A DNA stretch of 64,000 nt from Dehalococcoidia bacterium (GTDB lineage: Bacteria; Chloroflexota; Dehalococcoidia; Bin125), in assembly GCA_022822375.1 (NCBI GenBank), contig JAJEBU010000055.1, positions 1 to 64,000 of the forward strand, in the 5' to 3' direction. Made by a program: the position numbers and the translations under genes. Positions 6,240 through 61,483 of the stretch are shown here, one piece after another. Every line of letters starts with the position of its first letter. Within the stretch, counting starts at the first letter, position 1. The notes below the pieces were generated by a model, which worked only from the letters and a program-made list of their open reading frames with translations, was not told the DNA's origin and did no database searches.

Positions 6240-7625
6240 TTGACCACTCCCAGCACTGACATCGCCCCCAACCCATCGGAGATCGGGTCCGCCGAGCCAA
6301 GCACGATGGAGGAGCTCCTCGCCGAACCCGGTCGCGAACCGCTGAACCCGCGTCGCGGCGACATCGTCGAAGGCATCGTCGTTCACTGGTCCGGCTCCGT
6401 TCTGATCGTCAACGTCGGCGCGAAGTCTGAAGGCGTCGTCCATTACGAAGAAATGCGCTCGCTGACTGACAGCGAACGCGAATCGTTGAAGACCGGCGAT
6501 GGAGTCCCGGTCTACGTGACGGACTCGGAGCTCGAGGGCGGCTCCCTGGAACTGTCGATCGACCGCGCGCGCGGCGAGCAGGGCTGGCACGAGCTGCAGC
6601 GCCGCTTCGACGAGAACGAAGTCTTCGACGCCCGCGTCACCGGTTCCAACAAGGGCGGACTGCTCGTCAACGTCGAAGGCGTCAACGCCTTCGTCCCGCT
6701 CTCCCAGATTGTCGAGATCACCGGCGACCGCGAGCAGGCCATCGCCCAGCTGACTTCCTACGAAGGTCGCTCGCTGCGCTTCAAGGTGATTGAGATCAAC
6801 CGCCGTCGCAACCGCGTCATCCTCTCAGAGCGCGCCGCGGTCCAGGAATGGCGCGCCGAGCAGAAGGACCGCCTGCTCGAAGAGCTGCAGGAAGGCGAGA
6901 TTCGCACCGGCCGCGTCTCCAGCATTCGATCCTTCGGCGTCTTCGTCGACCTCGGCGGCGCCGACGGCCTGGCTCACCTCTCCGAACTGAGCTGGGAACG
7001 CGACATCGACCCCGAGACGATGTTCAGCATCGGCCAGACGATCGACGTCTACATCACCAAGATCGACAAGGAATCCAAGAAGATCGGCCTCTCCGTTCGC
7101 CGCGCCGCCCCCGAACAGTGGGACGAAATGGTGGACAAGTTCGAAGTCGGCGAGATCGTGCCGTCCGTGGTGACCAAACTGGTCGCCTTCGGCGCCTTCG
7201 CCCGACTCGAAGGTCCAGTCGAGGGCCTGGTGCACGTATCCGAGCTGGCCGACCGTCGGATCACGCATCCGCGTGAGGTCGTCCTGGAGAACGACATCAT
7301 CCCGGCCAAGATCGTCCGCATCGAGCGCGACCGACACCGTCTGGGACTGTCATTGCGGCAGGCCCGCTCGGACGCCGAACGCGTCGGCTGGGTCTTCAAC
7401 CAGGACGGCGGGATCACCCGCATGCCAGACGAGGTCGCCGAGCGCTTCGGTGTCGAGCAAGAGGCCTACACGCCGCCGCCCGCACCGCCGGAGCCAGAGC
7501 CGAGCCCGGCGCGCAGCGACAGCGCCGCAGCGTCCGAACCCGAGCAGGAGCCAGTCCGGGCGATGACCGCCATGCAAGAGGCGCTCGAAGCAGCCGGACT
7601 CACCGAGCAGGACGAAGGCTCTTAG
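6240..7625 (+). CDS. rpsA: 30S ribosomal protein S1, four S1 domains
   Basis: Four S1/OB repeats including GDIVEGIVVHWSGSVLIVNVGAKSEGVV and IRTGRVSSIRSFGVFVDLGGADGLAHLSEL; start uncertain (TTG 6240 or ATG 6306). Confidence 0.9.
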   Translation: MTTPSTDIAPNPSEIGSAEPSTMEELLAEPGREPLNPRRGDIVEGIVVHWSGSVLIVNVGAKSEGVVHYEEMRSLTDSERESLKTGDGVPVYVTDSELEGGSLELSIDRARGEQGWHELQRRFDENEVFDARVTGSNKGGLLVNVEGVNAFVPLSQIVEITGDREQAIAQLTSYEGRSLRFKVIEINRRRNRVILSERAAVQEWRAEQKDRLLEELQEGEIRTGRVSSIRSFGVFVDLGGADGLAHLSELSWERDIDPETMFSIGQTIDVYITKIDKESKKIGLSVRRAAPEQWDEMVDKFEVGEIVPSVVTKLVAFGAFARLEGPVEGLVHVSELADRRITHPREVVLENDIIPAKIVRIERDRHRLGLSLRQARSDAERVGWVFNQDGGITRMPDEVAERFGVEQEAYTPPPAPPEPEPSPARSDSAAASEPEQEPVRAMTAMQEALEAAGLTEQDEGS

Positions 7626-7842
7626 CGTTCGCGTTGCAGCGGCTGCCATATCACGCTCCTGCGTGTCTACGCGCTGCTGCCCCGCGTCTGACTCGATATC
7701 CGCGTGTGCGGCGAGCATCCGACCGCTCCACAACAGACGCACAAGCATCGGCCGCCAGTGCGTTCGCCCCGCCGATGCTCTGATAAGCTGAGCAATGTCC
7801 CCCAGGCGGACGCTCCGTCCGGAATGGACCTTGGAGACTGCC

Positions 7843-10437
<2,595 letters not shown>

Positions 10438-58228: not shown

Positions 58229-58356
58229 TGTGAGGCGCGTTGGTCGGAGCATGACTTGGGATGTTGGATATCGCAGTGGTCGGGCATACACTCAGAATGC
58301 CCACTTAGTGCAACCGCGAGTCGCGCGTCGACGCACCAGCTGAAAACGAGCCGCAT

Positions 58357-59052
58357 ATGGACCTCGAAGGACTGCAAGCGCTGCAGGAGATCGACATCCA
58401 GCGCGACCGCGCGATCCGTGAGCTGCAGACCATCGTCGAGCAGATTTCCGATCCACCGTTCCTGGCACAGCTCGACGCCGAGGTTGAGGCGCAGGCCGAC
58501 GAGGTCCGCCGCGCCGAGCTCTCCGCGCGCGAGGCGCACGCGCATGTGCAGACGGCTGAGCGTCGGATCGAAGCCGCCGATGCGAGGCTCTATTCGGGCA
58601 CGATCACCGATCACCGCACGCTCGAAGAGTTGCAGCGCGACCTCTACTCGCAGCGTCAACAGCTATCGCCGACGAAGGATGCTGAGACGCGCGCCAGTCA
58701 GGCTGCCGAAGCCGCCCGCGACGCCAGCTCGTGGCTGATGACCTTGCGCACCAATGTCGTCGATGCCTGGAACGCCAGACAGGCTCAGCTGCGCTCCGAG
58801 CAGGCGTCCGCGCAGGAGCAGGTCGACGAGCACGCTCGGCAGATTGCAGAGGTGCGCGGGCAGATTGCCGACGAAGAGCTCGCCGTCTATGACCAGTACC
58901 GCCGCCGCCGTCCGCGCGTCGTCGCGACCGTGACTGGCGGAGTCTGCGACGAGTGCAGACTGATGGTGCCGACCGTCGCAGTGACCCGCGCGCGTCGCGG
59001 CAACCGCGTGGTCGATTGTCCATCCTGTGGATGCATTCTGCGTGTGATCTAG
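58357..59052 (+). CDS. DUF164 (C4-type zinc ribbon, coiled-coil) protein
   Basis: Long coiled coil and C-terminal GVCDECRLMVPTVAV...VDCPSCGCILRV. Confidence 0.87.
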   Translation: MDLEGLQALQEIDIQRDRAIRELQTIVEQISDPPFLAQLDAEVEAQADEVRRAELSAREAHAHVQTAERRIEAADARLYSGTITDHRTLEELQRDLYSQRQQLSPTKDAETRASQAAEAARDASSWLMTLRTNVVDAWNARQAQLRSEQASAQEQVDEHARQIAEVRGQIADEELAVYDQYRRRRPRVVATVTGGVCDECRLMVPTVAVTRARRGNRVVDCPSCGCILRVI

Positions 59053-59084
59053 TACTCCCGGCGGCAACCGCATAGCATTGCAGC

Positions 59085-60539
59085 GTGCGTGCCATCGGCT
59101 ATCTCTCGCAGCTCCCTGACCAGATAGCAGGGCCGGTCCGCGGCAACGGCGTGGCGGCGACGTTGGTGCAGCAACACGCGTCGTTTCTCGGGTACTGCGA
59201 GTCGCACGGCTTTGAACCGACGGCGACATTCCTCGACGCCTCCGCCTCGGCCGAATCGCCCGACCGTGAGCGCTATGGCATGGCCCAGCTGCTGCGCCAC
59301 CTCAGCGAGCAAGCGCGCGGCTTCACCGTCGTGGTCGCGCAGTCGTTTGAGCACTTCGGCGCCGATCCGACGCAGGCCGTGCGTACCGTCTTACAGTTGC
59401 GAGCGCGCGGCGTTCACGTGGTCTCGCTGGACGACGGTCCGATTGACGACGCATCGCTGGTGACGCTGTGGCGCGCGGCGGCGAGTGACGAACCATCCTC
59501 CGACACCCGCCGCGCGCGGATGATCGAGCGGGCGAAGCTCGGTCAGGCCATCGGCCGTCCTCCCTACGGCTACAGAGTCGGCACCGACGGCCGCTACGAG
59601 ATCGACGACGATGAGGCGCAGGTCGTTCGTCGCATGTTCAGCCTCAGTCTGCGCGAAGGATTGGGCATCCGCCGGATTGCGCAGCGGCTCAACGCCGACG
59701 GATACCGAACTCGGCGCGGGCGCAACTGGAGCATGGTCACGATCCGTGACCTGTTACGCAATCCGGTCTACATCGGCCGGTACGACCGACTCGGTGTCAG
59801 CGTTGACGGCAATCATCCGGCGATCATCTCCGAACCCGACTTCCACCAGGTCGGCAAGCAGATGGCAGAACGGCGCACCGCGACCGGCGTGAGCCATCCG
59901 TCCGACTTCCTGCTGGCCGGCCTCGTCTGGTGCGGCGAGGACCAGACCCGCATGATCGGTGTCACCCGGCGGCATCAACGCCGCACCGATGGCGGCGAAC
60001 GTGAGTCAGTCGCCTACCGCTACTACCAATCTGAGGCGCGCACGAACCAATCGGTCGGCGGTTACCACACGCGCCGCGCAGACGAGCTTGAGCAAGCCGT
60101 TGTGGCGCAGATTCGGGGTGACCAAGGCGGCGGCGAAGCGACCGTCCTGAACATTGGGCGTGACGCCACCGCGCTGGCCGCGGAGACCGCCGTCGCCCTG
60201 TCCGCGGCCAGCGCGAGGCTGCGCGCCATCGAGCGCAGTCTGGCCCTGCTGCTCGAGGATGCCTCCGCCGGCGATCCCACGCAGCCCGCGCTGGGCGAGG
60301 CCGGCGCAACGATCGTCGAACAGTGGGAATCGGCCCACGCCGATCTGTCCGATCTGCAGAGTCGCGCGTTGGCGCACGAGCGGGACGGCGAGCGTCGCCG
60401 GCTGCGTGAGCAACGGGTGCAACAGGTTCGCGAAGAGTGGGGCGACTTGCCCTTTACGAAGCAGCGCGAACTGATCGAGCACCTGGTGTCGCGTGTCGTC
60501 GTCTTCGATGATTCAGTCACGACCCACTTCAACGCTTGA
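59085..60539 (+). CDS. Serine recombinase-like protein (large serine recombinase architecture) with degenerate catalytic and zinc-ribbon residues
   Basis: Resolvase-like MRAIGYLSQ..., recombinase domain GRPPYGYRVGTDGRYEIDDDEAQVVRRMF...GIRRIAQRLNADGYRTRRGRNWSMVTIRDLLRNPVYIGRY, degenerate beta-ribbon, C-terminal coiled coil; GTG start. Confidence 0.88.
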   Translation: MRAIGYLSQLPDQIAGPVRGNGVAATLVQQHASFLGYCESHGFEPTATFLDASASAESPDRERYGMAQLLRHLSEQARGFTVVVAQSFEHFGADPTQAVRTVLQLRARGVHVVSLDDGPIDDASLVTLWRAAASDEPSSDTRRARMIERAKLGQAIGRPPYGYRVGTDGRYEIDDDEAQVVRRMFSLSLREGLGIRRIAQRLNADGYRTRRGRNWSMVTIRDLLRNPVYIGRYDRLGVSVDGNHPAIISEPDFHQVGKQMAERRTATGVSHPSDFLLAGLVWCGEDQTRMIGVTRRHQRRTDGGERESVAYRYYQSEARTNQSVGGYHTRRADELEQAVVAQIRGDQGGGEATVLNIGRDATALAAETAVALSAASARLRAIERSLALLLEDASAGDPTQPALGEAGATIVEQWESAHADLSDLQSRALAHERDGERRRLREQRVQQVREEWGDLPFTKQRELIEHLVSRVVVFDDSVTTHFNA

Positions 60540-60557: not shown

Positions 60558-60968
60558 ATGCTGCCGAGCATGCGTCTGATCGCCTACGCCGATGGTGCCT
60601 CTCGCGGCAATCCCGGCCCCGCCGCCTACGGCGCGGTGCTCTGCGACCCCGATGGTTCCGAGCGGGACGCCTGGGGCAATCGGATTGGCAGAACGACGAA
60701 CAACGTGGCCGAGTACCACGGCGCGATCGCCGCGGTCGAGGCCGCCCTCGCAGCCGGCGCCACCGAGCTTGAACTGCGGCTCGATTCGGAGTTGATCGTG
60801 CGCCAGCTGCAGGGCCGCTACCGAGTTCGACATAAGGACCTGAAGCCGCTCTTCGAACAGCTCAGCGATCTGATTGACCAGCTCGACCACTTTCAGGCAT
60901 CGCACGTCCGACGCCATCTCAATCAGCGAGCCGACGCGCTCGCGAACGACGCGTTGGATCGTCGCTAG
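60558..60968 (+). CDS. rnhA: Ribonuclease HI family protein
   Basis: AYADGASRGNPGPAAYGAVL, NNVAEYHGAIAAVEAAL, LDSELIVRQLQG, NQRADALAN; start 60558 or 60570. Confidence 0.93.
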   Translation: MLPSMRLIAYADGASRGNPGPAAYGAVLCDPDGSERDAWGNRIGRTTNNVAEYHGAIAAVEAALAAGATELELRLDSELIVRQLQGRYRVRHKDLKPLFEQLSDLIDQLDHFQASHVRRHLNQRADALANDALDRR

Positions 60969-61046: not shown

Positions 61047-61448
61047 GCGCCAGGCCGCCGGGCGGTCGCGGCGCAACGGCTTCGGCCAGTGCGTCGAGGA
61101 AAGTCCGGGCTCCACGGGACAGGGCGCTGGGTAACTCCCAGGCAGGGCGACCTGACGGAAAGCGCACAGAAACACACCGCCAACCCGACGCCGCGCCTCG
61201 CGTTTGCGTAGTGCGGCGGCGTCGGCGGTAAGGGTGAGATGGTGCGGTAAGAGCGCACCAGCGGTCGGGTGACCGACCGGCTGAGCAAACCCCGCCCGGA
61301 GCAAGACCAAATAGGGAGGCGTCGGCTCGTCCCGGGCCGCCTCCGGGTAGGTCGCTCGAGGCGGCGGGTAACCGTCGTCCCAGATGGATGGCCGCCGCCC
61401 GATGCACAACCATCGGGTACAGAACCCGGCTTACAGGCGGCCTGGCGC
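61047..61448 (+). ncRNA. rnpB: RNase P RNA (bacterial type A)
   Basis: GAGGAAAGTCCGGGCTCC, ACAGAAACA, GGTAAGGGTGAGATGGTGCGGTAAGAGCGCACCAGC, AGCAAGACCAAATAGGGAGGC, ACAGAACCCGGCTTACAGGC; terminal stem GCGCCAGGCCGCC/GGCGGCCTGGCGC. Confidence 0.95.
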
Positions 61449-61483
61449 AAGCGGCCTGCGAGATCACTGGAAACCGACGTGCC

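Follow-up and report, generated by a model that had tools for sequence, protein, structure and literature searches.

We analysed a 64,000-nucleotide stretch of Dehalococcoidia DNA (the window) in which the gene studied here, X (59085..60539, + strand), encodes a catalytically dead homologue of the large serine recombinases (LSRs). With a probability of about 0.78, X is an anciently domesticated, vertically inherited LSR that now acts as an oligomeric DNA-binding protein. The evidence is direct for its descent, the loss of its catalytic set, vertical inheritance, operon context, selection and a shift in constraint; DNA binding and oligomerization would be the functions that these features point to. 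As the first-pass annotation had described, the open reading frame is intact, running from a GTG start through 484 amino acids to a TGA stop at 60537-60539, and Pfam recovers an LSR layout (PF00239, PF07508, PF13408). The degenerate resolvase-type N-terminal domain (aa 1-122; 59085..59450, +) is matched by PF00239 over aa 29-122 (E 3.1e-8, 34.2 bits, cut-off 23.3), and this match begins at model position 18: positions 1-17, the region of the catalytic Ser, are unaligned. The recombinase DNA-binding domain that follows (aa 153-263; 59541..59873, +) is, at E 1.1e-21 and 77.4 bits (cut-off 21.1) to PF07508, as well preserved as first noted, and is the family's most conserved part. The PF13408 match to the zinc-ribbon domain (aa 264-345; 59874..60119, +) is weak by comparison (E 1.7e-8), and the protein ends in a coiled-coil hairpin and C-terminus (aa 346-484; 60120..60536, +) with predicted helices at 360-394, 400-454 and 457-470. 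Among 18 X-family members (set A1), PF07508 and PF13408 are matched in all 18 and PF00239 in 12. Two other PF07508 proteins are encoded in the same genome, both with ordinary catalytic motifs.

The condition of the active site emerged from an alignment of 91 X-family members (two of them fragments here) with 19 ordinary LSRs of the same phylum. All 19 ordinary enzymes keep R8, S10, D36, R45, R68 and R71. In the X family, none of these six residues is kept in 17 members, one in 30, two in 31, three in 12 and four in a single member; S10 together with R68 and R71 occurs in 0 of the 91. R8 persists in 41/91 and D36 in 52/91, nearly every member has lost R68 and R71, and a Ser occupies the S10 column in four, each without R68 or R71 and with sister lineages that lack the Ser. 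In the window protein, R8, S10, R68 and R71 are replaced and D36 is kept: the Ser of GYLSQ sits in the R8 column, Leu fills the S10 column, and FEHFGA stands where ordinary LSRs have K-hydrophobic-S-R-F-T-R. The losses of the catalytic Ser and of the R8, R68 and R71 equivalents that had been read by eye are thus borne out. We also considered whether the catalytic residues have moved elsewhere in the protein, and rejected this: no Ser/Arg set was found elsewhere in X, and realignment with the 19 ordinary LSRs, combined with a loose RxS/DRLxR search (in which many RxS matches fall upstream of the start codon, in stop-to-stop frames), found the full set in no member. Because the rare S10-column Ser comes without R68/R71 and is absent from sister lineages, and because members keep only zero to four of the six residues, the catalytic loss is old and common to the whole class-wide family.

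The zinc ribbon has a different history. C283 is the sole survivor of the four zinc ligands in the window protein, as had been observed, but the single Cys does not hold as a trait of the family: our cysteine table places all four in nearly every host family of X orthologues. Three of the four are lost in the window's own family (f1), except in one genus that has them all, and family f14 exhibits partial loss, usually of the fourth. Zinc-ribbon loss therefore reads as a later, secondary change in the window's own family, and the window protein is an extreme member of the X family.

Orthologues of X are present in 15/15 genomes of its genus and 5/5 other genomes of its family, none of them interrupted by a stop codon, and in at least 191 of 393 sampled Dehalococcoidia genomes. 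The latter count derives from a search with a profile of 18 members, which matched 226/393 genomes at E up to 1e-40; 191, at E < 1e-60, were counted as family, since most matches scoring around 150-206 bits are ordinary LSRs, with a few divergent X members (G113, G337) also among them. A 301-genome sample of the phylum yielded no X orthologue outside Dehalococcoidia: the best outside match reached at most 197 bits, and those that were aligned carry full catalytic motifs. No copy was detected in roughly half of the genomes sampled from the class, so X is inessential to the class. A maximum-likelihood tree (quick search) separates 80 X-family rows from 19 ordinary LSRs by a fully supported branch, the tree being unrooted and its deep order unsure owing to long branches. 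With a single exception, subclades correspond to host families, and we read X as a vertically inherited gene in single copy. The exception is locus L167 (genome G352, family f26), whose X groups with family f33 and which keeps DUF164, unlike other f26 loci; transfer, misbinning or misassignment would each account for it. A phage or viral source was also considered and set aside, the only similarity being of the generic LSR kind (up to about 30% identity).

X almost always lies in the middle of a compact three-gene unit on one strand, DUF164 - X - rnhA. In the window the unit opens with a DUF164 (PF02591) gene for a coiled-coil and zinc-ribbon protein (58357..59052, +) and closes with rnhA for RNase HI (60558..60968, +; PF00075/PF13456); rnpB, the class A RNase P RNA gene (61050..61449, +; Rfam RF00010, 265.9 bits), and murE lie on the same strand, and all of these neighbours are as originally annotated. 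Divergent upstream of the unit are yceD and a fabD-nusB-acp-tatB-tatC block. A search for orthologues in the same context extended the linkage across the class: nearly every member with context has DUF164 immediately upstream, and many have rnhA immediately downstream, with median gaps of 4 nt for DUF164-X (75 loci, of which 64 lie between -20 and 50) and 5 nt for X-rnhA (35 loci), a few outlying values reflecting scripted start-codon choice. The position of X is identical in all genomes of the genus with enough context. Only short, imperfect att-like direct repeats were found flanking X, none of them convincing, and, in agreement with the initial reading, neither att sites nor cargo were found around the gene. 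Inserts were seen between X and rnhA in a few same-strand units: one of roughly 0.8 kb in two same-genus genomes (L032 and L033, about 7471-8260), in which an ORF with a small ORF upstream resembles a RelE/ParE-type toxin by eye and gave no Pfam match as a stop-to-stop translation, and one of 1.7 kb (L036, about 7471-9207) whose two strands each carry long open frames.

A further observation concerns loci without X. In class families f12, f13, f55, f62 and f71, and also in family f116 of another class, rnhA comes immediately after DUF164; no hidden X was found at 25 DUF164 loci checked in X-less genomes. Because the two genes often abut where X is absent, both within the class and in another, the simplest history would be insertion of X into an older DUF164-rnhA pair, followed by loss in places; for individual X-less families, loss alone is possible. 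Conversely, DUF164 is missing from family f26 loci (e.g., L053, L176, L187), where X sits beside divergent yceD: here X has outlived its usual partner, and DUF164 is therefore dispensable for X.

Selection on X is strong. Between close same-genus pairs, omega is 0.06-0.13 (NG86) or 0.035-0.09 (YN00), similar to DUF164 and RnhA and below YceD in most pairs, which is purifying selection as strong as that on the neighbours; it is low in every domain, including the N-terminal one, and no frameshifted orthologue occurs among those aligned. Over longer distances the domains part company. Mean identity between host families is 0.525 in the X family versus 0.403 in ordinary LSRs for the recombinase domain and 0.476 versus 0.442 for the zinc ribbon, and falls to 0.264 versus 0.490 for the N-terminal domain and 0.209 versus 0.314 for the C-terminal part; the two sets differ in depth, and the contrast between domains inside one set is the safer reading. 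Conservation in X has moved from the catalytic to the DNA-binding domains. Together with class-wide orthology, vertical inheritance, conserved synteny and the absence of the catalytic set from every member, the low dN/dS upholds the original proposal of a domesticated, non-recombining protein.

Structure prediction agrees with this descent, at low confidence. An AlphaFold2 model built with nine close sequences (mean pLDDT 58, pTM 0.31) has a recognizable LSR layout; pLDDT is under 40 in the zinc-ribbon region and about 67-80 in the predicted C-terminal helices 360-394 and 400-454. The best Foldseek matches are the phiC31, SPbeta and Bxb1 integrases (E 1e-13 to 1e-10), with full-length TM values that are low because the model does not predict domain placement; for the catalytic-domain part, the matches include resolvases, with target TM values as high as 0.67.

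We hypothesize that, in some ancestor among the Dehalococcoidia, an LSR gene settled between DUF164 and rnhA, lost its active site and was from then on passed down vertically, in single copy, as part of the operon. The recombinase and zinc-ribbon domains are the parts with which LSRs hold DNA. Because the strongest constraint falls on these parts while the cutting residues are gone, X is probably an oligomeric DNA-binding protein: its old catalytic fold and coiled coil may hold subunits together, and its recombinase and zinc-ribbon domains may grip DNA without cutting it. The loss of zinc ligands in the window's own lineage counts against DNA binding. Its task may be one shared with DUF164 and RNase HI (e.g., at R-loops or in replication), or gene regulation. 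The host role first suggested (chromosome organization, R-loops/replication or regulation) is one that the operon linkage fits without proving; the link is only suggestive, because DUF164 and rnhA were linked before X arrived and are linked in other phyla too, and because f26 has X without DUF164. Tentatively, DUF164, X and RNase HI could form one module in which the dead integrase targets or scaffolds the processing of RNA:DNA hybrids, or replication, at chosen chromosomal sites; if so, this would be a non-recombining use of LSR architecture.

A comparably tentative possibility is that X mainly regulates transcription of its own operon or a small regulon by binding near the DUF164 and X promoters. 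Across nine same-genus genomes, a sigma-70-like promoter upstream of DUF164 (TTGGAT-17-TACACT; 58264..58292, +) has a conserved spacer, and the X leader (59050..59084, +) is also conserved in the genus, with CTAGT and a TAGCAT box 6 nt before the GTG. This box (window 59062-59087) is a candidate promoter, and suggests a leaderless X transcript besides operon transcription. However, conservation of a promoter requires neither an operator nor X, the DUF164 element has a single genome copy at up to 3 mismatches, and beyond the genus, where X adjoins the stop codon of DUF164, no such leader can be seen. We consider it improbable that X acts against newly arriving elements that carry an LSR, whether by sitting on attB-like sites or by joining their integrases in mixed oligomers: the genome does hold two ordinary LSRs, and the family keeps LSR DNA-binding domains, but the N-terminal interface region has diverged and X adjoins housekeeping genes rather than defence islands. 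Nor did X match PADLOC, and we rejected membership of a defence system; DUF164 matched JetC weakly (16.8 bits), probably through coiled-coil similarity.

Continued recombination by X, whether with a non-standard active site or in partnership with an LSR that is still intact, is very improbable on the alignments. The retention of R8 and D36 in many members, and the four S10-column serines, might be taken in its favour, but these few serines are absent from sister lineages and never accompany R68 and R71, which almost all members have lost, and no att repeats were found flanking X. The chance that X is what remains of an integrated element in decay is negligible: lost catalytic residues, and lost zinc ligands in the window's family, are what decay would leave, but no listed orthologue has an internal stop, omega is about 0.1 and the position is fixed class-wide. 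We accordingly dismissed a pseudogene or decaying element, which the selection and synteny data contradict.

The domesticated, DNA-binding LSR that we favour shares with the large serine integrases (phiC31, Bxb1, A118, SPbeta YokA) a resolvase fold, recombinase domain, zinc ribbon and coiled coil, in that order; unlike them, it lacks the catalytic Ser/Arg set, is inherited vertically in a housekeeping operon, and is one for which att sites or cargo were not found. SpoIVCA of skin and XisF of the fdxN element are domesticated LSRs that have stayed catalytically active and excise a DNA element. X resembles them as an LSR kept by its host in vertical descent, and differs from them in having no catalytic set; its score against the NCBIfam XisF model is 58 bits (cut-off 375). 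To our knowledge, the host uses of serine recombinases depend on catalysis. DUF164 proteins such as H. pylori FlgZ combine a coiled coil with a zinc ribbon; they are the operon partners of X and have no sequence homology to it. In other phyla, rnhA and the gene for RNase P RNA are among the neighbours of DUF164, and the functions of the family have been termed virtually unknown (PMC3372290).

We found no earlier report of such a family in the limited open-access literature that we searched. Beyond the first observation, what is new is its class-wide extent, the shared and ancient catalytic loss, the insertion into DUF164-rnhA and the secondary loss of zinc ligands. A large part of a bacterial class has retained a whole LSR despite its loss of catalysis, and constraint has shifted to its DNA-binding domains, which makes X a candidate for a natural LSR-derived DNA-binding protein. 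Its insertion into the old DUF164-rnhA pair is an event that could be mapped onto the tree of the class, and X offers a handle on the role of DUF164 beside RNase H.
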